Source: Bacteroidota bacterium
Lineage (GTDB): Bacteria; Bacteroidota; Bacteroidia; Chitinophagales; Chitinophagaceae
Length of the DNA stretch: 64,000 nucleotides
Assembly (NCBI GenBank): GCA_018267545.1
Contig: JAFDYG010000496.1
Span: 62,001 to 126,000 of the forward strand
Reading direction: 5' to 3'
The position numbers and the translations under genes are program-made. The notes below the pieces were generated by a model that was given only the letters and a program-made list of their open reading frames with translations, was not told the DNA's origin and made no database searches. This document shows, one piece after another, positions 26,662-63,663 of this stretch. Numbering within the stretch: position 1 is the first letter of the stretch; each line of letters starts with the position of its first letter.

Positions 26662-27114
26662 TTATATCGTCGCCTCCCCTGTTCCCCCGCCCCCACTCAA
26701 TATACTCCGCAAATGAAACCGCACGAAGTGCTCCATGGAATCCTCCCGGTTATATCCTGCCCCATAACCCATCGGCTTGATTAAATATCCCGATACCCCA
26801 AGCCGGTCGATTGCCCTCCTGTCGGCCTGCTCCCCCGAAGTCGTCATCACGAACACAGGAATATCCTTCAGCCGCTCGTCGGTCCGGATAATGGTCAAAA
26901 ATTCCAGTCCATTCATCCTGGGCATATTCAGATCCAGCAGCACCAAATCCGGCAAAGAGCTCATCCCTCCATTCCCCCGTAATATATCGAGCGCTTCAAT
27001 TCCGTTGAAAGCCGTGTAGAGTTCGTACGGAATATCCAGCTTGTTCAGCGATCTCCTCACGCTCATCACATCCAGCTCATCATCCTCTACCAGCACGATT
27101 ACTTTTTTTTCCAT
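26662..27114 (-). CDS. Receiver-only response regulator
   Basis: 150 residues. Receiver domain with E10/D11/D12, phospho-acceptor D61 (LVLLDLNMP), T91/T92 in FVMTTSG and a Lys in LIKPMGYG. No DNA-binding domain is present; the last 25 residues form an extra helix. The single base at 27114 is shared by its start codon and the stop region of the kinase gene, so the two are co-translated and must be a cognate pair. Such receivers act through protein contact or as phosphorelay intermediates. Confidence 0.92.
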   Translation of the reverse strand: MEKKVIVLVEDDELDVMSVRRSLNKLDIPYELYTAFNGIEALDILRGNGGMSSLPDLVLLDLNMPRMNGLEFLTIIRTDERLKDIPVFVMTTSGEQADRRAIDRLGVSGYLIKPMGYGAGYNREDSMEHFVRFHLRSILSGGGGTGEATI

Positions 27115-28535
27115 TATATATTCTTTAACCAGGTGAAAAAGAATTTGGCTCCATTACCGGGAGAAGAAACCAGCCGGATACTCCCACCCCGCTCCTCCAC
27201 GATCTTTCGGACGATCGAAAGCCCAATCCCGGTGCTTTCCTTGTCGGCCTTCTCGCGCAGGGTCCGAAACATGCCGAATATCTTCTCATGGTATTGCGCG
27301 GGTATCCCGGGGCCATTGTCCTCTACCCAAAATTCATAGTGCGCGCCGTAGTCCACCGCGCCCACCGTAATGACCGTCGCTCCGGCCCGGCCGTATTTGA
27401 CCGCATTGCCGATCAGGTTGCTCAGCACCTGCTGCAGGGTAAGCCGCTCCGTAAACACGACAGGCAGCCGCTCCGTCCGTATAATATATCCATCCGGCAC
27501 AATCAGGTCCGCCAGTTCCCCCACCAGCTTTTCTACATCCACCGCCTCTTTCAACGCCCCTTCCCTCCCCGCACGCGCATATTCCAGCATCCCGTCGATC
27601 AGCGCCTCCATCCGGTTGACACGATCGGGAATAAAATCCAGGTATTTTCGAACTGTCGGACCGATCTCCGAGCCATGATCCTCTTCTATCCATTTTATCA
27701 CATTCGATATACCCCGCACCGGAGCTTTCAGATCGTGCGAAACGACATAAGCGAATTGGTTCAGCTCCTGGTTCTTTTTCTCCAGCTCGCTGATCGTCTG
27801 GCTAAGCTTATCCGACATGAGATTCAATGAATGCGACAGACTGCTCAGCTCATCGCGTTTATCATCCTCCACCCGGCTAAAGTCCCCCTGGGAAATTCTT
27901 TCGGCAAGCCTCACCAGCGGCCGGATCCGGCCCGAAATCCTCCGGACCAGCCACAACGCCGTACCCAGCCCGACTAAAACCAGCAAAAGACTGGACATCA
28001 GCGAATACCGATCCGTCCGGGCGATCGCCTCCGACTGCTCTTTTCTGCGAATGTCCCTCAACCCGTATTCGGCCTTATTGAATGAATCGAAAAGCAGGGA
28101 AATCCGCTGGTAATATTCCAGGTCGGCCACCATTCGCACACCCGGCACGGTCTTTTTCCCGGATTTGATTATTCCATTCGCAAAGTCTACCCAATGTCCA
28201 TGCAGCACCATGATCGAATCCAAAACCCTCCGCTGCTCCGGTAAGGAAATAAGCGGGTCCAGCTGTCTTCCCCGCTCGGGAATACTCTTCAACCCCTCGT
28301 CATACACCACCAAAAATTTCTTGTCGCCGGTCAGCAGAAATCCGCGAAAAGCACTCTCCATCCCTATCATATCTTTATTGAGATTGGCGGAATAGCGGAT
28401 AACAGCTTCCGACCTGTTCAGAAACTCCGAAACCTGCTTGACTCTCAACGTAAGCATATAATTGACCACAGAATCCAGCAAATCGATCGAAATGGCAATC
28501 ATGAAGCCCAAAAAAATTTGCGTCGCTAATTTCAT
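27114..28535 (-). CDS. Sensor histidine kinase with CHASE3-type sensor and HAMP
   Basis: 473 residues. Membrane helix 1 is at about 7-29, a helical CHASE3-like extracytoplasmic domain at about 35-175 (ESAFRGFLLTGDKKFL is the diagnostic stretch), membrane helix 2 at about 178-198, HAMP at about 199-252, then a coiled coil and HisKA with H267 in YVVSHDLKAP. The catalytic domain has an N box (NLIGNAVKYG), a G1 box (DNGPGIP) and a G2 box (STGIGLSIV). All motifs are intact. It forms a pair with the receiver gene downstream and is divergent from the trehalose-phosphatase gene, 142 bp away. Confidence 0.93.
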   Translation of the reverse strand: MKLATQIFLGFMIAISIDLLDSVVNYMLTLRVKQVSEFLNRSEAVIRYSANLNKDMIGMESAFRGFLLTGDKKFLVVYDEGLKSIPERGRQLDPLISLPEQRRVLDSIMVLHGHWVDFANGIIKSGKKTVPGVRMVADLEYYQRISLLFDSFNKAEYGLRDIRRKEQSEAIARTDRYSLMSSLLLVLVGLGTALWLVRRISGRIRPLVRLAERISQGDFSRVEDDKRDELSSLSHSLNLMSDKLSQTISELEKKNQELNQFAYVVSHDLKAPVRGISNVIKWIEEDHGSEIGPTVRKYLDFIPDRVNRMEALIDGMLEYARAGREGALKEAVDVEKLVGELADLIVPDGYIIRTERLPVVFTERLTLQQVLSNLIGNAVKYGRAGATVITVGAVDYGAHYEFWVEDNGPGIPAQYHEKIFGMFRTLREKADKESTGIGLSIVRKIVEERGGSIRLVSSPGNGAKFFFTWLKNI

Positions 28536-28593: not shown

Positions 28594-28622
28594 TTCTAAT
28601 GAAATTCTAATTTGTTTCTAAT
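28594..28622 (+). promoter_or_regulatory. Triple TTCTAAT repeat with 11-bp period upstream of the trehalose gene
   Basis: TTCTAAT occurs at 28594-28600, 28605-28611 and 28616-28622, exactly 11 bp apart, followed by a likely -7 element TAGATTTA at 28644-28651. The same repeat pair recurs before the antiporter and the first MscS gene. Equal spacing of one helical turn is typical of PhoB/OmpR-class binding sites. Confidence 0.75.
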
Positions 28623-28643
28623 GCCAATCATTACCGGTGGAGG

Positions 28644-28651
28644 TAGATTTA
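28644..28651 (+). promoter_or_regulatory. Possible -7 element for the trehalose-phosphatase gene
   Basis: TAGATTTA matches TAnnTTTG at seven of eight positions and lies 26 bp before the ATG. Its start is 50 and 39 bp after the first two TTCTAAT boxes, the same offsets seen at the MscS promoter. Confidence 0.45.
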
Positions 28652-28677
28652 CATCAGCTTAACGAAATCTTCCGGAA

Positions 28678-30261
28678 ATGAATACGCATAACAGACTCTT
28701 CATTATAACAGGTCACCTTCCTTTACAAATACAAGACCTCGACGCCCGGATAACGGTTCAGCCGTCCTTCGACGATCGTACCTCCACCATTGCAGCCTTT
28801 CTTCAACCGGACCACGGAATCGACAGTCCTGCATTCAGAGAGATTGGCTGGACAGGCATAACCGCCTGTACACCCGCGACATGGGCCCTGCTACCCCTCG
28901 AAGGTATGCCCGGCCGCATTTCCTGGTATCCCGTCTTCCTGTCCGCTAAATACGAGCAGGGTCTCATCCAGGGCTTCGGCAATACCGTCCTGTGGCCCCT
29001 GTTCCATTACCTTCCAACCGATGCGAAATACCAGGCGGCCTCCTTCGCAGACTACGTCGGAATCAACAGCCAGTTCACCGAAAGCATGCAGCGCTACCTT
29101 CGGCCCGGAGACACGGTATGGATCCACGACTACCATTTATTACCATTGGCAGGAATGCTCAGAGAGCTGCTCCCCGAACTCACCATCGGTCTGTCCCTGC
29201 ATATCCCCTTTCCTTCTTTCACAGCCTTCCGGCGCCTCCCGGAAGACTGGCAGCGGCAGATCCTAAAAGGAATGCTCGGCGCCGATCTCATCGGCTTCCA
29301 AACAGCAGAATTCGCCGACCATTTTCGCAGCTCTGTCCGTATGATCCTGAATACCCCCGTAGATGGAATGACCGTCGAATTCGAAGACAGGCTCGTCGCT
29401 ACCGGCGTTTTCACCATGAAAAGCGAATGGGGAAAAGACTTTCTTACGGCATTGAAAAATGCCCGGCATCACCAGCAGAATTTCCAGATCCGGTTTTTCG
29501 ACGTCTATTCGCAGCGGCAGCTGATGGAACACTATCGCAACGCCGGCAAACGCCAGTTTCTCCTCGACTACGACGGCACCCTGATGCCCTTCTTCGACCT
29601 CCCGTCCCAGGCCCGCCCCGCCGATATGGTGCTGGACTCCCTCCGCCGGCTGGCCGCCGACGACCGTAACTCCGTATGCATCATCAGCGGCAGGGACAGC
29701 AACACGCTTCAAAACTGGCTGGGACAGCTTCCCATTCATATCATCGCCGAACACGGAGCCGAAATAAGATACCGCGGTCAGCCCTGGCAGCGAATAGGCC
29801 ATCACGTCGATGAATGGAAACACCACGTGCTCCCCGCAATGGAGCATTACACCGGGAAATGCCCCGGCGCCTTCATCGAAGAGAAGAATTTTTCGATCGT
29901 CTGGCACTACCGCAATGCAGATGCTCCGCTTGCAGACAGCATAAAAATGGACCTCTACTCCAAACTATCCGGCATCATCGCCGGCCTCGGACTGCAAATA
30001 ACGATGGGCAAGAAAATCGTCGAAGTACGAAGCGGGCACATCGACAAAGGAAGCACAGTCCAGAACCTGCTCGGCCGCGAAACCGGCGACTTCATCCTCG
30101 CCATCGGCGACGACCGCACCGACGAGGATATGTTCCGCGCCCTCGCCGACCAAAAGCAGGCTTTCACGATCAAAGTAGGCCACGAAGCTTCCTACGCCCA
30201 TTTCAACGTCCATACCCCGCAATCCGTCATCTCCCTGCTGGACATGCTCGGACACATCTGA
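28678..30261 (+). CDS. Trehalose-6-phosphate phosphatase fused to a half GT20 synthase domain
   Basis: 527 residues. Residues 1-245 match the N-terminal lobe of trehalose-phosphate synthase (GT20): NTVLWPLFHYLP near 102-113, VWIHDYHL 147-154, LHIPFPSF 174-181 and GADLIGFQT 201-209. The C-terminal lobe that binds UDP-glucose (R-x-DY-x-KG and the D-G-M-N-L-V block) is absent: after GVFTM at 243-247 the chain passes directly to the end of a synthase domain (SEWGKDF) and a linker. Residues 290-527 are an intact HAD phosphatase with D297/D299 (DYDGT), S337 (SGR), K457 and D478/D479 with D482. Usual bifunctional proteins have about 730 residues. It should still remove phosphate from trehalose-6-phosphate but not make it. 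The arginine of the usual SNR motif is also lost (TGH). Confidence 0.88.
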   Translation: MNTHNRLFIITGHLPLQIQDLDARITVQPSFDDRTSTIAAFLQPDHGIDSPAFREIGWTGITACTPATWALLPLEGMPGRISWYPVFLSAKYEQGLIQGFGNTVLWPLFHYLPTDAKYQAASFADYVGINSQFTESMQRYLRPGDTVWIHDYHLLPLAGMLRELLPELTIGLSLHIPFPSFTAFRRLPEDWQRQILKGMLGADLIGFQTAEFADHFRSSVRMILNTPVDGMTVEFEDRLVATGVFTMKSEWGKDFLTALKNARHHQQNFQIRFFDVYSQRQLMEHYRNAGKRQFLLDYDGTLMPFFDLPSQARPADMVLDSLRRLAADDRNSVCIISGRDSNTLQNWLGQLPIHIIAEHGAEIRYRGQPWQRIGHHVDEWKHHVLPAMEHYTGKCPGAFIEEKNFSIVWHYRNADAPLADSIKMDLYSKLSGIIAGLGLQITMGKKIVEVRSGHIDKGSTVQNLLGRETGDFILAIGDDRTDEDMFRALADQKQAFTIKVGHEASYAHFNVHTPQSVISLLDMLGHI

Positions 30262-30308
30262 ACCAGCCCATCGCACCAACCTGTCTCACCTCCACGCGCC
30301 GCACCGCC

Positions 30309-31742
30309 TCACCTCCACCCGCCGCCCAGCGCCCTGTACAGATCGACCATCGAAGCCATCTGCCGCTGCCGGGTCTCCACCAGGTCGAACTTCGATTCAA
30401 GCGCATCGCGCTGCGTCATCAGCACTTCCATATAATCGGCGTGAGCAGACCTGAACAGCTGATCGGCAATGCCGATCGACTGACTTAACGCACCAACCTG
30501 GCTGGCCCTCAGCTCATAGCTCTTTTCCAGGTTGCCGATTTTCGACAGCTGGTTGGCTACCTCCGCATACGCATTCAATATCGTCTGCTCATAATGGTAC
30601 ACCGCCTGTATCTGCCTGGCATTGGCGCTGAAATAAGCCGCCTTGATCGCATTCCTGTTGACCAGCGGAGCAGTGAGATCGCCTGCCAGCGAATACAGCA
30701 GCGACTTCGGCGTCTCCAGGAGATAGGCCGGGTTGAAGGACTGGTAACCCAGCGAAGCAGATATGTCCAGCGACGGAAAGAACCGGGCTCTCGCAGCCTT
30801 TACATCCAGCCGCGCCGCAGCCAGGTCCAGCTCGGCCTGCCGGATATCCGGGCGATTGACCAGCAGCTGGGAAGGAACACCGGCTTGCACGACGCCGGAA
30901 AGCACGCTGTCGGTGGCCTGGCGGCTCCTGGCAATCGGCTGCGGATACCGCCCCAGCAGCAAATTGATCCTGTTCTCCGTCTCGGTGATCCGCTGCCGGA
31001 GATCGTATCGCATACTTTGCGTCTTCGATACCTCCGCCTCGAACTTCCGTACCGCCAGCTCCGTCACCCGCGTGGCCTCCTTCTGGACCCGGACTATATG
31101 TAACGCATTCTGCTGAAGGGTGATATTGCTCTCCAGTATCTCCAGCTGTTTATCCAACGCCTGCAGCTCATAGTAGGCGTCGGCAATCTCGGCGACCAGG
31201 TTGGTAACGACGAAATTCCGGCCCTCTACGGTGGACAGGTAGCGGCTCACCGCCGCCTTTTTCGCATTGTGCAGCTTATTCCAGATATCGACCTCCCAGC
31301 TGGCATTGACGGCCACCAGGTAGTCCTGCAGAGGATCCGGCGTTCCCCCGCCCGGCCGGACGGCGATCTCGTCCTCGGTAGCCCCCTGCAGGGTATACCT
31401 GCCGGCTTTGTCGAAACCCGCGCCCGCCTTTACTCCTGCAAAAGGCAGGTACTCCCCCTTCCTCGCCCTGACTTCATTACGCGCAATTTCTATCTCCTGC
31501 AGCATGCTGTTCAGCTCCCTGTTGCCGGCAAGCGCCGTATCGATGAGAGACTGCAGGTAAGGGTCGGCGAAAAACGCCCGCCGGCCCAGGGCCGCAGCAT
31601 TGGCAGTATCACCGCCCACGCCATAGGTGGCCGGCGTCGTCCTGTCCTCGCTCCTGCCGGAAACGGCCGGGACACGACACGCGTTGGACAAAAGCAAAAT
31701 GCATATTGCCACTATATATCCGCGAAATGTTTTCCTATACAT
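30309..31742 (-). CDS. Outer-membrane efflux lipoprotein (TolC/OprM/NodT family)
   Basis: 477 residues. The lipobox ends at C22 (LLLSNAC). Two TolC-type repeats of long helices are recognisable (IDTALAGNRELNSMLQEI; NRPDIRQAELDLAAARLDVK is the second-repeat hallmark). It forms the outer-membrane exit duct for the RND pump. Its start overlaps the end of the pump gene by 8 bp, so all three efflux genes form one minus-strand operon: adaptor, pump, duct. Confidence 0.93.
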   Translation of the reverse strand: MYRKTFRGYIVAICILLLSNACRVPAVSGRSEDRTTPATYGVGGDTANAAALGRRAFFADPYLQSLIDTALAGNRELNSMLQEIEIARNEVRARKGEYLPFAGVKAGAGFDKAGRYTLQGATEDEIAVRPGGGTPDPLQDYLVAVNASWEVDIWNKLHNAKKAAVSRYLSTVEGRNFVVTNLVAEIADAYYELQALDKQLEILESNITLQQNALHIVRVQKEATRVTELAVRKFEAEVSKTQSMRYDLRQRITETENRINLLLGRYPQPIARSRQATDSVLSGVVQAGVPSQLLVNRPDIRQAELDLAAARLDVKAARARFFPSLDISASLGYQSFNPAYLLETPKSLLYSLAGDLTAPLVNRNAIKAAYFSANARQIQAVYHYEQTILNAYAEVANQLSKIGNLEKSYELRASQVGALSQSIGIADQLFRSAHADYMEVLMTQRDALESKFDLVETRQRQMASMVDLYRALGGGWR

Positions 31743-34700
31743 GGTGATCTATTTCTTCTGTTAAAGGATTTTCGTCTTCGTCTTTGATCAGCTTGCGTCT
31801 TGCCGCAATGGTGCCGAACAGATAGTATAATCCGGGGATGAGGATCACACCGAACAACGTACCCATCAGCATCCCTCCCGCCGAAGCAGCGCCGATGGTA
31901 TGATTGCCGATGGCGCCCGGCCCCGTAGCCACCAGCAGCGGAATCAACCCCGCTATAAAAGCCAGCGAGGTCATCAGTATCGGACGAAACCGCTCCTTCG
32001 CCCCTTCTATAGCCGCCTGAAACACCGTCGAGCCCGCCCTGTGCCGCTGTACCGCAAACTCCACGATCAGCACCGCATTCTTACCCAGCAAACCAACCAG
32101 CATGACCAGCCCTACCTGTGCGTATATGTCGTTGGCCAAACCCATGGCTTTGATCAGCGCAAAGGAGCCGAACACGCCGGCAGGAAGCGAAAGAATCACC
32201 GCCAGCGGCAGGATGAAGCTCTCATATTGCGCAGCCAGGATAAGGTATACGAAACCCAGCACCACCAGGAAGATATACAGCGCCTCGTTGCCTCGTCCCG
32301 TCTCGTCCTTCGAAAGCCCTTCCCAATCGATCCCATACCCGCGCGGCAACGTCTTCGCCGCTACTTCCTGGATGGCCCTCAACGCTTCTCCGCTGCTATA
32401 ACCCGCAGCAGGCTCCCCCCTTATGGCGGATGAAGGATACATGTTGTAACGCGTAATCTCGTTGAGTCCATGCGTCTTCCTTATCGTCATGAAGTCCGAA
32501 TAAGGAACCATCTCATCCTTGTCATTTTTGACATACAGCTTCAGCACATCGTCGGGCAGCTGCCGGTATTGCGGCCCCGACTGCACATACACCTTGTAAA
32601 AGGTGCCGAAACGAATAAAACCCAGCTCATAAGTGCTGCCGATGAGCATCGACAGATTATCCATGGCCTTCCCGATAGAAACGCCTTTCTGCATCGCCGC
32701 CTCGTTGTTGATCTGCAGCTCATACTGCGGATAGTTGGCGCTGAAAAACGTAAAAAGCCCCGACAGCTCCTTTCGCTGCCTCAGCGCATTCATGAAATCG
32801 TCGTTCACCTTCTCCAGCTCCCGGTAATCGTCGTTGTTGGTTTTGTCCAGCAGCCGCAGCGCAAATCCACCCGCACTCCCATATCCCGGTACCGCCGGCG
32901 GGCCAAAGAATTCGATGGTAGCCCCCGACAGGTCCTTCGTCTTCTCCTCCAGCTCTTTCATGATCTCGTTGACCGTATGCTTTCGCCTGGACCACTCCTT
33001 CAGATTGATCAGGCAAGTGCCCGCATTGGAACCCCGGCCATCGGTCAATACCTCGTAACCGGCCAGGGCCGACACGGACTGTATACCCTCGATATGCTCG
33101 GCAATGGCCTGCACTTTTCTGGCAAGCTCATTGGTCCGCTCCAGCGTAGAGCCCGGAGGCGTCTGAATGATGGCATAGATCATTCCCTGGTCTTCATTGG
33201 GAATAAATCCGGACGATAGCCCCCGGTTGATACCGAAAATACCGAACCCAAAAGCAGCCAGCAGCCCGAACGTAACCAGCCTTCGGCTGACGATACGCCT
33301 CAGCAAACCCGTATAAGCGCCCGTCAGCCGGTCGAAGCCCCTGTTGAAGGCATCGATGAGCCGGTCTACCGGCGTCTTCTTCCTCGGCTGCCCATGCGTA
33401 TTCTTCAGGATGATCGCACACAGCACCGGCGTAAGCGTCAACGCCACCAGCCCGGACAGGACAATCGACGTAGCCATCGTAATGGAAAACTGGCGGTAGA
33501 AAATCCCCACCGGACCGGACATGAACGCCACCGGAATGAATACCGCAGCCATTACGAAGGTTATCGCTACGATGGCCCCGCTGATCTCGTGGACCACCTT
33601 TTTACTCGCCGCATACGGCGACAGATGCTCGGTAGCCATTTTCACATGCACCGCCTCGATCACCACGATCGCATTGTCCACCACAATCCCGATGGCGAGC
33701 ACCAATGCAAAAAGCGTAATCAGATTGATGGTCAGACCGAAAAGCTGCATGAAGAAAAAGGCCCCGATCAGCGAAACGGGCACGGCCAGCGTCGGGATCA
33801 GGGTGGAACGCCAGTCGCCAAGAAACAGGAAGACCACGATCGCCACCAGGATAAACGCCTCTCCCAGCGTATGCAATACTTTTTCGATGGAAGCATCCAG
33901 GAAGCTGGACACGTCGTAGCTGATGTCATAGTCCATACCCGGCGGAAACGAGCTGCCCTTGATCTCCTCGAGCCTTTCCTTGATCCTGCGGATGACGTCG
34001 CTCGCATTGCTTCCATAGGTCTGCTTCAGTACAATTGCCGCAGACGGATGATTGTTAAGATTGGAATAGATGTCATAGAACTCGCTGCCGAGCTCGACGT
34101 CGGCAACATCCTTCAAACGCAGGAATTCCCCGTTCGGATTCGCCTTCAAAATGACATTCTGGTACTGCTCCGGCTGATTATATCTTCCCTGGTAGGTAAG
34201 CACATATTCCAACGCCTCCGACCGCTGACCGTCGCTGCGCCCGATACGGCCCGGAGAACCGATGATGCTCTGCTCGCCAAGCGCCTGCATCACTTCCTCC
34301 GTGGAAATATTATAGGCCCGCATCCGGTCGGGCTTGAGCCAGATACGCATAGCGTACTGCCTGCTGCCCAGGATTTGCGCCTTGCCGATGCCCTTCACCC
34401 GCCGGAGCTCCTGCAGAATATTGACGTTGGCATAGTTGTAAAGAAATTTTTCGTCCGCGTGCGGGTCCGTACTGTAGACATTAACATACATCAGCATATT
34501 GGGCTGAAGGATGTTTACGACCACCCCTTCGCGCTGCACCAGCGGCGGCAGCCGGTTGGTCACCTGCTCGATACGGTTTTTCACGTTGACGACGGCCTGG
34601 TTAGGATCGGTCCCCAGGTCGAAGACAACCTGGATATTCGCCTCGCCGGCGCTGGTGGCGTCGGACGTCATGTACTTCATGCCCGCCACGCCGTTCACGG

Positions 34701-34902
34701 CTTTTTCCATCGGGATCAGCACCGACTTGACCAGCACGTCCGCGCTGGCGCCGGGATAGGCCACGGTAACCTCTACCCGGGGCGGAGCGATGGAAGGGAA
34801 TTGCGATGTAGGAAGGGTATTGATGGCCAGAACCCCCATAAAGATAATGACAAGGGAGATCACAATGGAGAAGACCGGCCTCTTCATGAATATGTTGAAC
34901 AT
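31735..34902 (-). CDS. RND multidrug efflux pump, HAE1 (AcrB-like) family
   Basis: 1055 residues, the usual AcrB length, with 12 membrane helices in two repeats and large periplasmic loops (FIKRP-like start, then LPTSQFPSIAPPRVEVTVAYPGAS). The proton relay shows one change: the AcrB Asp pair on helix 4 reads VVDNAIVVIE here, so the second Asp is Asn. The helix-10 Lys is kept (GLLGKNAVLIVEF). The C-terminus ends in a charged cytoplasmic tail. Substrates are probably hydrophobic drugs, bile-like compounds or envelope lipids. It is encoded between the adaptor (26 bp gap) and the outer-membrane duct. Confidence 0.95.
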   Translation of the reverse strand: MFNIFMKRPVFSIVISLVIIFMGVLAINTLPTSQFPSIAPPRVEVTVAYPGASADVLVKSVLIPMEKAVNGVAGMKYMTSDATSAGEANIQVVFDLGTDPNQAVVNVKNRIEQVTNRLPPLVQREGVVVNILQPNMLMYVNVYSTDPHADEKFLYNYANVNILQELRRVKGIGKAQILGSRQYAMRIWLKPDRMRAYNISTEEVMQALGEQSIIGSPGRIGRSDGQRSEALEYVLTYQGRYNQPEQYQNVILKANPNGEFLRLKDVADVELGSEFYDIYSNLNNHPSAAIVLKQTYGSNASDVIRRIKERLEEIKGSSFPPGMDYDISYDVSSFLDASIEKVLHTLGEAFILVAIVVFLFLGDWRSTLIPTLAVPVSLIGAFFFMQLFGLTINLITLFALVLAIGIVVDNAIVVIEAVHVKMATEHLSPYAASKKVVHEISGAIVAITFVMAAVFIPVAFMSGPVGIFYRQFSITMATSIVLSGLVALTLTPVLCAIILKNTHGQPRKKTPVDRLIDAFNRGFDRLTGAYTGLLRRIVSRRLVTFGLLAAFGFGIFGINRGLSSGFIPNEDQGMIYAIIQTPPGSTLERTNELARKVQAIAEHIEGIQSVSALAGYEVLTDGRGSNAGTCLINLKEWSRRKHTVNEIMKELEEKTKDLSGATIEFFGPPAVPGYGSAGGFALRLLDKTNNDDYRELEKVNDDFMNALRQRKELSGLFTFFSANYPQYELQINNEAAMQKGVSIGKAMDNLSMLIGSTYELGFIRFGTFYKVYVQSGPQYRQLPDDVLKLYVKNDKDEMVPYSDFMTIRKTHGLNEITRYNMYPSSAIRGEPAAGYSSGEALRAIQEVAAKTLPRGYGIDWEGLSKDETGRGNEALYIFLVVLGFVYLILAAQYESFILPLAVILSLPAGVFGSFALIKAMGLANDIYAQVGLVMLVGLLGKNAVLIVEFAVQRHRAGSTVFQAAIEGAKERFRPILMTSLAFIAGLIPLLVATGPGAIGNHTIGAASAGGMLMGTLFGVILIPGLYYLFGTIAARRKLIKDEDENPLTEEIDHHV

Positions 34903-34928
34903 TATTTTCTGTTTTTGGAGGGTATGCT

Positions 34929-36011
34929 TTATTCTGTCGGCAGCTTCAGACGGTCGATTACAGAATGAGGGTCCTGGTACCTGAAAACGACGTGATCGTT
35001 ATTCTTAACCTTGAGAAGACCTTCCAGCAGGATCTTCTCGTCCCCGGAAAGACCTTCGCTCACGACGTACAAATCCGGCAGCTGAGCCCCGATCGTGATG
35101 GGCGTCAGCCTGGCGATATTATCCTTATCTATCACATACACGTATTTCTTATCCATGATCTCCAGGGTCGCCTTCTGCGGAATAACCACCGCCTTCTTCA
35201 ACGGCACCCTCATCAGCACATTCCCCGTCTCGCCATGCCTCAGCACTCCCTTTTCGTTGGGGAATGCAGCCCTGAAAGCAATATTGCCATTCTCGTTGTT
35301 GAACTCGCCTTCGATGGTCTCCACCACACCCGGATGATCGAATAGCTGCCCGTTGGCCATCTGCAGCTGCACCTTCGTTTTCTCGCTGCTGTTCGGGCGG
35401 GAAACGTAATTCAGGTATTCGGGCTCCGACACGTTGAAATACACCCACATCCGGCTGTTGTCGGACAGCGAGGTCAGCAGATCACCTTCCCCTACAAGAC
35501 TGCCCTGCTTCAGATGAAGCCGGTCGACCAGACCGTCGAACGGAGCCCTTATTTCGGTAAAGCCCAGGTGCACCTGCGCCAGCCCAAGCTCCGCCTTCGC
35601 CCGGTTATACCGGGCCATCGCCATCGCCAGCTCATTCTTCGACACGATATTGCTGTCGGCAAGCCGCCGGCTGTTCTGAACTTCGATATCGGCTTCATTG
35701 ACTTCCGCCTGCGCCTTTTGCAGCTCCGCCTCGTATATCTTCGGCATAATGCGAAAAAGCAGCTGGCCCTTATGGACGTACTGACCTTCGTCTACATAAA
35801 TATCCTGCAGGTAGCCCTTTTCCTGGGCCTTGATCTCGATATTACGGATCGACCGAACCTGCGAGACATAAGACTTCGTTACCGAAGTATCCATCTGCAC
35901 CGCACTGGTTACGAGAAATGTAGGAGTTTCGATTTTTTCGGCTTCCGTGGATGTACACGCCGCCTGGCATAGACACGCCAGCACGCCGACGAGCATGAGG
36001 GTTTGTTTCAT
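34929..36011 (-). CDS. RND periplasmic adaptor (membrane fusion lipoprotein)
   Basis: 360 residues. The lipobox ends at C19 (LCQAAC). Barrel-sandwich halves are visible as EKGYLQDIYVDEGQYVHKGQLLF and FTEIRAPFDGLVDRL, with a short alpha-hairpin between them (about 95-145), then a beta-barrel (GNVLMRVPLKKAVVIPQ) and a membrane-proximal domain. It links the pump to the outer-membrane duct and is the first gene of the operon. A perfect 17-bp palindrome lies 51-67 bp upstream, a likely operator. Confidence 0.95.
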   Translation of the reverse strand: MKQTLMLVGVLACLCQAACTSTEAEKIETPTFLVTSAVQMDTSVTKSYVSQVRSIRNIEIKAQEKGYLQDIYVDEGQYVHKGQLLFRIMPKIYEAELQKAQAEVNEADIEVQNSRRLADSNIVSKNELAMAMARYNRAKAELGLAQVHLGFTEIRAPFDGLVDRLHLKQGSLVGEGDLLTSLSDNSRMWVYFNVSEPEYLNYVSRPNSSEKTKVQLQMANGQLFDHPGVVETIEGEFNNENGNIAFRAAFPNEKGVLRHGETGNVLMRVPLKKAVVIPQKATLEIMDKKYVYVIDKDNIARLTPITIGAQLPDLYVVSEGLSGDEKILLEGLLKVKNNDHVVFRYQDPHSVIDRLKLPTE

Positions 36012-36061
36012 AATGCTTATTATTTACACTGGTGAAGGGATTGCAATAAAATAACTACCGC

Positions 36062-36078
36062 TATAGCAGGCTGCTATA
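36062..36078. promoter_or_regulatory. 17-bp perfect palindrome, likely operator of the efflux operon
   Basis: TATAGCAG-G-CTGCTATA: two 8-bp arms around one central base, 51 bp upstream of the adaptor start codon. The length and AT-ended arms fit a dimeric TetR- or MarR-like repressor site. No such regulator is encoded in the window. Confidence 0.65.
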
Positions 36079-36107
36079 CGGCAACAAACGGGACCAACGA
36101 AAAAAGA

Positions 36108-36488
36108 TTAGATTCTGAGCACTCTGTGGATAATGTACTTCGGGGAAGAATAGCCGGAAGTACGACGGCACGCCCGTAAACGCCGGAGAAAGGACAGACA
36201 GCTCCATCCGTATGACGATACAGACCTGGAACAGAAATAATCGCTGGGCTCACCCGCATGCCTCCTGCCCAGATCGTCTTCATCTTCGAGCTCGACAGCC
36301 TTCAGCTTGTCGGAACCATGGTGGGTGGCCGAAGACGGAGGCTCCGCAATAACCCGCGCTTCGCTGACCCCGAAACGCTCGAAAACCCCGCCCCCGAAGA
36401 CGAATCGCGTAGCACGAATCGCAGGCTCGCCCCTGTGAAGGAGCGGTAAGCATAAAAATAGGAGGAATTGAATCAACGATCTCTTCAT
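36108..36488 (-). CDS. Doubtful small secreted protein upstream of the efflux operon
   Basis: 126 codons. The first 25 residues look like a signal peptide (MKRSLIQFLLFLCLPLLHRG), which is the main support. The middle is acidic (LKAVELEDEDD). The last 45 residues are Arg/Ser/Cys-rich and resemble non-coding translation; a second minus-strand frame (36283 to 36074) looks equally plausible there, so a frameshift cannot be excluded. The remaining sequence between 36012 and 36630 holds the 17-bp palindrome and the TTCTAAT pair and no other gene that I can support. Confidence 0.35.
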   Translation of the reverse strand: MKRSLIQFLLFLCLPLLHRGEPAIRATRFVFGGGVFERFGVSEARVIAEPPSSATHHGSDKLKAVELEDEDDLGRRHAGEPSDYFCSRSVSSYGWSCLSFLRRLRACRRTSGYSSPKYIIHRVLRI

Positions 36489-36580
36489 CTTACTTAGTCA
36501 TGGATGTTCGAATTTCCATGGCGGGCAATCGTCGCATAAAGTTAATATGCCGGCACATAGATTCATACAACACCTTCCAA

Positions 36581-36598
36581 TTCTAATGACATTCTAAC
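36581..36598 (+). promoter_or_regulatory. TTCTAAT/TTCTAAC repeat pair, 11-bp period, upstream of the antiporter
   Basis: TTCTAAT at 36581-36587 and TTCTAAC at 36592-36598 are 11 bp apart. A -7-like TAAACTTG follows at 36619-36626; the boxes lie 38 and 27 bp before it, one base from boxes 2 and 3 of the trehalose promoter (39 and 28). Confidence 0.65.
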
Positions 36599-36618
36599 CT
36601 TTTTTCCGATTTTATCCT

Positions 36619-36626
36619 TAAACTTG
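36619..36626 (+). promoter_or_regulatory. Possible -7 element for the antiporter gene
   Basis: TAAACTTG matches TAnnTTTG at seven of eight positions and ends 4 bp before the ATG at 36631, which would make the transcript leaderless. Confidence 0.35.
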
Positions 36627-36630
36627 AATC

Positions 36631-37863
36631 ATGAACACGCAGGAAATAATTACTCTTACCATTTTACTGGCAGCCGTTTTTTCTTATATCAACCATCGTC
36701 TGCTGAAATGGCCCCCGGTAATAGGAATCGCAGCGCTTTCCCTGGTATCGTCCATACTGCTGATCACGCTGGGCTCCTCCTGGTTCACCCTGTCGAAAAA
36801 AGTCGTCCTTCTCGCAGCATCCGTAGACTTCCAGGACCTGCTGATGAACTTCATGCTAAGCTTCCTCCTTTTCGCCGGAGCCATCCACATCGACGCCGCA
36901 AGCCTCAAAAGCCAACGCTGGTCCGTCATGACGCTGGCCACCGCCGCCACCCTGGTCTCTACCTTTCTCATCGGCTTCATCACCTGGAATATCTTCAACC
37001 TCTTCCATTTCCCCATTCCCTTCATCCACTGCCTGCTGTTTGGCGCACTGATCTCTCCTACCGACCCCATCGCCGTTCTGAGCATCCTTCGGAAGGCAGG
37101 CATACCCTCATCCCTCGAATTGAAAATCGCCGGGGAATCCCTCTTCAATGACGGCGTTGCAGTCGTCATTTTCATCAGCATCCTGAAGCTGGCAAGCCCG
37201 GATATGACCGAAGTATCCGCGGTCTCCATCGGAGGACTCTTTCTTCGCGAAGCTTTAGGCGGCATCGCCTTCGGCGCGCTGCTCGGCTACCTGGGCTTCC
37301 TCGCCCTCCGCTCCATCGACGATTATAAAGTGGAGGTAATGATCACGCTTGCCATCGTAATGGGCGGTTATTACATCGCAGACCGCCTGCACGTGTCCGG
37401 CCCCCTGGCCATGGTCGTAGCCGGTCTGATCACAGGCAACAAGGTCTCACACGAAGCGCTCTCCGATACCAGCAGGGATTATCTCCATAAATTCTGGGAA
37501 CTCATCGACGAAATCCTCAACGCCGTTCTCTTTCTTTTCATCGGCCTGGAAATGCTGATTATACGCATCGATAAAACCATCCTTGTCATCGGAGCCGTCT
37601 GCATCCTCATCTGCCTGCTGTCGCGCTGGCTATCCGTCAGCCTGCCGGTGCTGCTGCTTCGCCGCAAGCTCGATTTTGAAAAGAACGCCATCGCAATTCT
37701 TACCTGGGGCGGCCTCAGGGGCGGCATCTCCATTGCCATGGCCCTTTCTCTCGGCGAAGACATGCACCGGAGCGAATTCGTTTCCATCACCTACATCATC
37801 GTCATCTTCTCCATCCTCGTCCAGGGCCTCACCATCGGACGGATTGCACGGAAGCTTCAGTAA
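36631..37863 (+). CDS. Monovalent cation/proton antiporter (CPA1, NhaP type)
   Basis: 410 residues with about 12 membrane segments. The ion-binding motifs are intact: ISPTDPIAVLSIL (TDP at 144-146) and GESLFNDG with N173/D174, the electroneutral ND signature of CPA1. A conserved Arg occurs in LTWGGLRGGISIAMAL. It has no C-terminal regulatory domain. It should exchange cytoplasmic Na+ or K+ for protons, setting ion content and pH. The unit is monocistronic, between the efflux operon and the mechanosensitive channel, under the TTCTAAT repeats shared with the other stress genes. Confidence 0.93.
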   Translation: MNTQEIITLTILLAAVFSYINHRLLKWPPVIGIAALSLVSSILLITLGSSWFTLSKKVVLLAASVDFQDLLMNFMLSFLLFAGAIHIDAASLKSQRWSVMTLATAATLVSTFLIGFITWNIFNLFHFPIPFIHCLLFGALISPTDPIAVLSILRKAGIPSSLELKIAGESLFNDGVAVVIFISILKLASPDMTEVSAVSIGGLFLREALGGIAFGALLGYLGFLALRSIDDYKVEVMITLAIVMGGYYIADRLHVSGPLAMVVAGLITGNKVSHEALSDTSRDYLHKFWELIDEILNAVLFLFIGLEMLIIRIDKTILVIGAVCILICLLSRWLSVSLPVLLLRRKLDFEKNAIAILTWGGLRGGISIAMALSLGEDMHRSEFVSITYIIVIFSILVQGLTIGRIARKLQ

Positions 37864-37915
37864 TGAACGGTGTGGAACCGAATACCCAGTCATGCAATAA
37901 TTTCCACGAATAAGG

Positions 37916-37933
37916 TTCTAATGGGATTCTAAT
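37916..37933 (+). promoter_or_regulatory. TTCTAAT repeat pair, 11-bp period, upstream of mscS/GT20 operon
   Basis: TTCTAAT at 37916-37922 and 37927-37933, 11 bp apart. They lie 50 and 39 bp before the -7 element TACCTTTG (37966), exactly the offsets of the first two boxes at the trehalose-phosphatase promoter. Confidence 0.75.
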
Positions 37934-37965
37934 CTATCCGGGGATTAGCTTTGCCCGTTCCTGTC

Positions 37966-37973
37966 TACCTTTG
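37966..37973 (+). promoter_or_regulatory. -7 promoter element of the mscS/GT20 operon
   Basis: TACCTTTG is an exact TAnnTTTG match, 41 bp before the ATG at 38015. A TTTG at 37950 is too close (12 bp) to be its -33; an activator bound to the TTCTAAT boxes could replace the missing element. Confidence 0.55.
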
Positions 37974-63632: not shown

Positions 63633-63663
63633 CGAAATTTTCTTTTATGTTCAAGCAAATCGA

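Follow-up and report, generated by a model that had tools for sequence, protein, structure and literature searches.

In a 64,000-nucleotide stretch of a Bacteroidota genome of the family Chitinophagaceae (assembly GCA_018267545.1, contig JAFDYG010000496.1, positions 62,001 to 126,000; hereafter the window), the heptamer TTCTAAT and a near copy recur as direct repeats 11 bp apart upstream of three separate units, encoding a trehalose-6-phosphate phosphatase (TPP), a cation/proton antiporter (CPA), and an MscS-type mechanosensitive channel (MscS1) with a GT20 protein. Does this repeat place the three units under one regulator, and if so, which one? Judged from sequence comparisons, TTCTAAT-N4-TTCTAAT is probably an operator of a known class, namely direct repeats predicted to be bound by an OmpR/PhoB-type regulator, and the two-component system RR499/HK499, whose regulator is encoded outside the window, is probably the switch of all three units (Table 1).

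An exact scan of the window found TTCTAAT on the plus strand at 28594, 28605, 28616, 36581, 37916 and 37927. An earlier note, made by reading the sequence, had listed seven copies; these six are exact where it placed them, whereas the copy at 36592 reads TTCTAAC. It had also stated that the window holds no other pair, and this stands, the sole further copy being a single one on the minus strand at 63663. Because the heptamer alone occurs at chance level (7 observed vs 6.1 expected), it was dropped as a signal, and the evidence for an operator rests on the 11-bp pairing.

In the whole genome (7.3 Mb), the pair TTCTAAT-N4-TTCTAAT occurs five times exactly and 13 times at ≤ 1 mismatch, compared with none for the reversed pattern. 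Grouped by hand, the 13 matches represent nine separate sites, three of which lie within 9.4 kb in the window (P ∼0.0004 under uniform placement). Among 33 congeneric genomes, 13 contain exact pairs, 46 in all (reversed pattern: 5); exact pairs also occur 220 times in 107 of 294 family genomes, with control counts of 41 in 32 genomes (summed by hand). Matches at ≤ 1 mismatch, in the window and in genus loci retrieved for their matches or regulators, were chained into 65 arrays. Of these, 59 were intergenic, and for 51 the nearest downstream open reading frame (ORF) lay no more than 350 bp away in the same orientation; these counts are rough, as ORFs were called mechanically and the sequence of some loci stops at the site. 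Many sites comprise three or four units, with looser outer units. Tandem operator pairs before one gene were seen at L061 (6274/6319, 45 bp apart) and L219 (4154/4186, 32 bp).

Chance pairing, or a functionless repeat family, would fit the abundance of the single heptamer and the counts at two mismatches, where the signal in this genome is swamped (52 vs 39 in the reversed control). It would also fit the genus totals over spacers 0–30, in which the control exceeds the motif (101 vs 88; hand sums). Enrichment is nevertheless limited to spacer 4, since 46 of the 88 matches fall there (control 5) and 42 are spread over the other 30 spacers, and the sites are intergenic, oriented and tied to one regulator clade, which makes this explanation very improbable.

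That clade is represented in the same genome by an OmpR/PhoB-type regulator/kinase operon, RR499/HK499 (contig C499), which has the operator on either side and in which the kinase gene overlaps the regulator gene; the operator also stands behind a second such operon, that of the paralogue RR461 (contig C461). Both regulators consist of a receiver (PF00072) and a C-terminal winged helix (PF00486, Trans_reg_C). Close RR499 relatives are present in 68 of 244 family genomes (83 matches). At the best 30 of these 83 matches, one per genome, a spacer-4 pair lies within 1.5 kb exactly in 22 loci and at ≤ 1 mismatch in 27; at ≤ 1 mismatch, other spacers occur at six loci (spacer 15, the next register), two (spacer 10) and one (spacer 7), and the reversed control is 0 at every spacer. 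Direct repeats with a period of ∼11 bp are thus associated with RR499 across genomes, in agreement with the earlier suggestion of an OmpR/PhoB-class regulator.

Linkage between regulator and operator is tight. Within the genus, 10 of the 11 genomes that encode an RR499 orthologue (at least 69% identical) contain the exact pair, vs 3 of the 22 that lack one (P = 3e-5); in G023, one of these three, the pairs lie at an RR461-type operon. Within the family, 53 of 68 genomes with an RR499 relative carry the exact pair, compared with 54 of 226 without (P = 1e-15), in lists matched by hand and with the regulator searched in 244 of the 294 genomes, so that ∼50 of the 226 are unsearched.

The −7 consensus of the phylum is TAnnTTTG, and the distances from the repeats to likely −7 elements given in the earlier note proved exact. 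TPP and MscS1 share an offset of 50 bp from the first repeat, a geometry common to two of the three sites; the CPA promoter call, at offset 38, is weak because no more than 4 bp separate the end of the element from the ATG. The MscS1 promoter has a second −7 match, TAGCTTTG, at offset 30. Across 64 sites, −7 matches peak at offsets 50–52 (19 sites) and 62 (11 sites); no comparable peak appears with the reversed motif. With a −7 counted as recognizable at 5/6 or better, and with site classes assigned by us, recognizable elements occur at 19 of 38 RR499-class sites, 14 of the 19 at exactly the modal offset of 50, and at 11 of 12 RR461-class sites, 10 of the 11 at 62. The offsets 38, 50 and 62 differ by 12-bp steps, about one helical turn.

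A position upstream of the −7 element is usual for activators of the OmpR/PhoB class. Sequence alone does not fix the sign of the effect, and the sites could belong to a repressor or a dual regulator, the repeats keeping the stress genes silent for as long as the system is active; however, the arrays are placed ahead of the −7 at fixed distances and do not cover it, and we regard a repressing or dual role as improbable. In the mechanism we propose, activated RR499 would form head-to-tail dimers on two or four TTCTAAT units with an 11-bp period, and a TAnnTTTG-type −7 would follow at offset 50 from the first unit; binding there would activate osmotic and envelope stress genes. Its targets would include its own neighbours (OmpA and universal stress genes in relatives) and, here, TPP, the CPA antiporter and the MscS/GT20 operon.

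Genes accompanying the operator elsewhere fit such a role. Within the genus as well as in other genera, the operator near RR499 precedes universal stress (Usp), TPR, OmpA and ClC genes; many of these neighbours were identified through BLAST matches to a small number of representatives scanned with Pfam. At L203 the order is regulator, kinase, operator, an 81-aa ORF, MscS1 and NhaA; at L206 an operator with one mismatch stands before otsAB, beside Usp, kinase and regulator genes; at L207 the operator is followed by a glycerol-3-phosphate dehydrogenase (GPD) gene and a GT20 gene fused to a sucrose-phosphatase-like domain, possibly a glucosylglycerol or trehalose operon; and at L202, L204 and L205 it sits between ClC and regulator genes. 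Of 31 genomes with both an MscS1 homologue and an RR499 relative, 8 have the two within 10 kb of each other (hand count). In one Bacteroidetes metagenome-assembled genome (MAG; L015), genes for TPP, trehalase and GT20 are followed by an exact pair, NhaD, a regulator 52% identical to RR499 and a kinase, with another exact pair after these. L015 is one of 13 loci retrieved with the GT20 protein; at ≤ 1 mismatch, the remaining 12 have no pair. The genome of the window has further sites, which lie before a gene for a 143-aa protein, itself followed by one for an HtrA-type protease, before a kinase gene that diverges from one for a ClC channel, and before a DUF2961 gene.

The osmotic-stress regulon of the earlier note is therefore borne out in its gene content, with turgor and envelope genes (MscS with NhaA, otsAB, GPD–GT20, ClC, OmpA, Usp) carrying the operator in other genera. 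Osmolyte synthesis, ion antiport and mechanosensitive channels are all represented, and the operator-linked genes form an osmotic/envelope-stress set; the signal would be osmotic. We consider it likely that the repeats are the operator of RR499/HK499 and activate osmotic and envelope stress genes including the three window units, the latter being assigned to RR499 mainly because TPP and MscS1 share the −7 offset of 50.

Several results weigh against this assignment. Conservation upstream of orthologues, proposed in the earlier note as a check, was mostly negative. Eight CPA homologues in six other genomes had no pair directly upstream (0/8, two mismatches allowed), and the 77% homologue in G022 lacks it; two of the eight (G003 C255 and G009 C54) have the pair ahead of a putative operon. 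For MscS1, none of three other genus members has a pair at ≤ 1 mismatch, and the pair occurs in 3 of 30 family loci (own included), rising to 7 at two mismatches (control 2). For otsAB, the corresponding counts are 2 and 8 of 30 loci (control 2 at two mismatches). These figures refer to the best 30 of 57 MscS1 matches and 30 of 73 otsAB matches, with the pair anywhere in the gene ± 1.5 kb. Among the genus members compared for MscS1, G020 shows TTTTAAT arrays, next to a regulator resembling RR499. Long-standing conserved membership was not found for the three window genes; with mostly no pair at orthologues, either the regulon is fluid or some of the window sites are recent.

Other discordant points concern geometry, site profiles and the regulator itself. 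Stress-gene sites of the remaining class have a recognizable −7 in 11 of 13 cases, only 4 of the 11 at offset 50. On a tetrad profile built for RR499, the TPP site scores 10.9 (maximum of 20 surrogates, 9.0) and the CPA and MscS sites score below 0, whereas on the RR461 profile the TPP site reaches 20.0 (highest surrogate, 13.6); tetrad scoring is a weak guide here because the window sites have two or three units. Finally, G003 and G009 carry the operator at ClC, CPA antiporter and related genes, with best RR499 relatives of 63% and 62%, in a search that scored 86 of 158 and 86 of 122 candidates, respectively; incomplete search or assembly may explain this mismatch.

The main competitor is RR461, which, by itself or together with RR499, might read all of the window sites or only part of them, for instance the one at the antiporter. 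As both regulators are associated with the same core heptamer (TTCTAAT pairs at 10 of 11 RR461-group loci, TTTTAAT at 1 of 11), a TTCTAAT pair alone is no proof of RR499 membership, and the TPP site, as noted, scores higher on the RR461 profile. Moreover, RR461-class sites precede genes for P-type cation ATPases (L064, L068, L071), MgtC (L189), HlyD (L057) and cytochrome b561 (L009, L080), so that a role in ion stress is not specific to RR499, a further point against our assignment. A 907-aa gene behind some of these sites was initially considered a TonB protein; this was ruled out, and it encodes a P-type cation ATPase. Because RR461 sites occur at cation-transport genes, our confidence in RR499 was lowered slightly and that in RR461 raised by a similar step. 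Even so, RR461 is an unlikely owner: the recognizable −7 elements of its class nearly always lie at 62, not at the 50 of TPP and MscS1; its third and fourth units are mostly TTATAAT and CTCTAAC, which the window sites lack; and MscS, otsAB, GPD–GT20, ClC and NhaA genes are found beside RR499, not RR461. The two systems may have kindred roles, and the P-type cation ATPase, MgtC and HlyD genes behind RR461-class sites suggest another regulon, linked to cations, that shares the core heptamer.

A third regulator, RR502, which stands for 12 loci, is 61–63% identical to RR499; 11 of the loci form one supported clade in the tree, and L172 lies beside it with unresolved placement. All 12 have TTTTAAT spacer-4 pairs and none has TTCTAAT pairs, compared with 7 and 38, respectively, of 41 RR499-group loci; reversed controls at spacer 4 give 0 or 1 per regulator group. 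At RR499 position 208, every member of the RR499 and RR461 groups has Tyr, whereas all 12 of the RR502 group have Phe, as illustrated by the sister regulators at L010 4245–4958 (TTCTAAT) and L179 2284–3024 (TTTTAAT). This residue aligns with Arg201 of Escherichia coli PhoB (numbering counted by hand), which is one of four residues with base-specific contacts (PMC3264566).

Among the first 72 regulators, Phe goes with T in 12/12 and Tyr with C in 47/60 (T 2, mixed 5, none 6). Among a later 49, Phe goes with T in 21/23 (none 2) and Tyr with C in 15/26 (T 3, mixed 7, none 1), an association with P = 3e-8 on clear cases. In the tree, three changes at residue 208 suffice and provide one or two independent contrasts. 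With so few contrasts, and with other positions differing too, the idea of a proven specificity switch was dropped, and Tyr to Phe at residue 208 is only a candidate for what sets the C to T operator preference.

Taken jointly, these patterns allow a broader picture, which we put forward tentatively and hold to be possible, though somewhat doubtful as a whole. Three sister two-component systems within one genome would recognize minimally different operators: RR499 (osmotic/envelope) and RR461 (cation transport) would both read TTCTAAT, kept apart by 50- vs 62-bp spacing and by their outer units, and RR502 would read TTTTAAT, the change from C to T being set by Tyr to Phe at the PhoB Arg201 position. 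RR499 would be a main osmotic/envelope-stress regulator of a large family, probably of Bacteroidota, with a fluid regulon that repeatedly recruits trehalose, glucosylglycerol-type, antiporter and channel genes.

TPP scores above the cut-off of NCBIfam TIGR00685, and the CPA antiporter reaches no NCBIfam equivalog cut-off. The TPP gene retains only GT20 profile positions 70–244 of 473, N-terminal to the phosphatase, and is perhaps a decayed otsAB fusion; an otsAB of normal length is also present in the genome (C170), and within the genus TPP has no full-length orthologue, its matches being longer fusions or fragments. The GT20 gene downstream of MscS1 is probably in one operon with it, and the second MscS channel gene possibly belongs to the same operon. 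The GT20 protein has hydrophobic segments around residues 2–31 and 169–195; its N-terminal ∼270 aa, containing both, are receptor-like and have no Pfam match at E ≤ 1. Near-full-length matches (59–68% identity) occur in 11 MAG loci (L014–L024) titled Bacteroidota or Ignavibacteria. The window also encodes a CHASE3-HAMP histidine kinase and a single-domain response regulator (26662–28535, minus strand), divergent from the TPP operator, and an OmpR-type regulator/kinase pair (757–2942), ∼30% identical to RR499 and with no operator pair nearby.

Table 1. Probable operators, putative promoter elements and genes of the three window units, and the candidate regulator operon
Feature	Position	Strand	Details
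Operator of TPP, three TTCTAAT units, 11-bp period	28594..28622	+	exact
Putative −7 of TPP, TAGATTTA	28644..28651	+	offset 50 from repeat 1; 5/6 to TAnnTTTG
TPP with partial GT20 region, 527 aa	28678..30261	+	PF02358, partial PF00982
Operator of CPA, TTCTAAT-N4-TTCTAAC	36581..36598	+	one mismatch
Possible −7 of CPA, TAAACTTG	36619..36626	+	offset 38; weak
CPA-type cation/proton antiporter, 410 aa	36631..37863	+	PF00999
Operator of MscS1, TTCTAAT-N4-TTCTAAT	37916..37933	+	exact
Putative −7 of MscS1, TACCTTTG	37966..37973	+	offset 50 from repeat 1; 6/6 to TAnnTTTG
MscS-type mechanosensitive channel MscS1, 353 aa	38015..39076	+	PF00924, PF21082, PF21088
GT20 protein, trehalose-6-phosphate synthase-like, N-terminal part hydrophobic, 743 aa	39089..41320	+	PF00982
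Second MscS-type channel, 608 aa	41397..43223	+	PF00924, PF21082
RR499/HK499 operon	G000:C499, locus L010 2845-4958		outside window
HK499 kinase gene	L010 2845-4245		HisKA, HATPase_c
RR499 regulator gene	L010 4245-4958

We found no matching operator or regulon in the open-licence literature searched; this is weak evidence of absence, because most subscription papers were outside the search. Within that literature, the operator, its candidate regulator and the target list concern stress control in a family for which we found none described, and the paralogous regulators provide a natural set in which a one-base operator change can be compared with a one-residue change.

OmpR/PhoB regulators are known to bind direct repeats (PMC3264566, PMC8345958 and PMC3978041). 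Like RR499, which is 31% identical to it, E. coli PhoB combines a receiver with a Trans_reg_C winged helix, and its Pho box operator consists of two 11-bp direct repeats (PMC3978041), as do the pairs described here. The PhoB half-site, TGTCA(T/C) (PMC3264566), and the PhoB targets differ from those proposed for RR499, RR499 has Tyr in place of the base-contacting Arg201, and it falls below the PhoB equivalog cut-offs. Among the best 25 of 101 NCBIfam models matched, RR499 reaches no cut-off (bits vs cut-off: PhoB 174/296, OmpR 146/331, heavy-metal regulator 236/279). The Bacteroides regulators RprY and PhoB are of the same class and from Bacteroidota, and RR499 is neither of them (RprY 144 vs 370, PhoB 173 vs 270).

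KdpE is an OmpR/PhoB-class regulator of an osmotic-balance operon, kdpFABC, with half-sites TTTATA and TTTACA whose 5-bp spacer likewise places them 11 bp apart (PMC3264566); its target, however, is a K+ pump, and its footprint spans −72 to −50. The KdpE model is not among the best 25 matched by RR499. HP1043 of Helicobacter pylori is an activator, recognizing two TTTAAG hexamers with a 5-bp spacer that overlap promoter sequences (PMC8345958), but it is a phosphorylation-independent orphan and is modelled on DNA otherwise than head-to-tail. Set beside these systems, the regulator class is known, and the operator and its regulon appear to be new.

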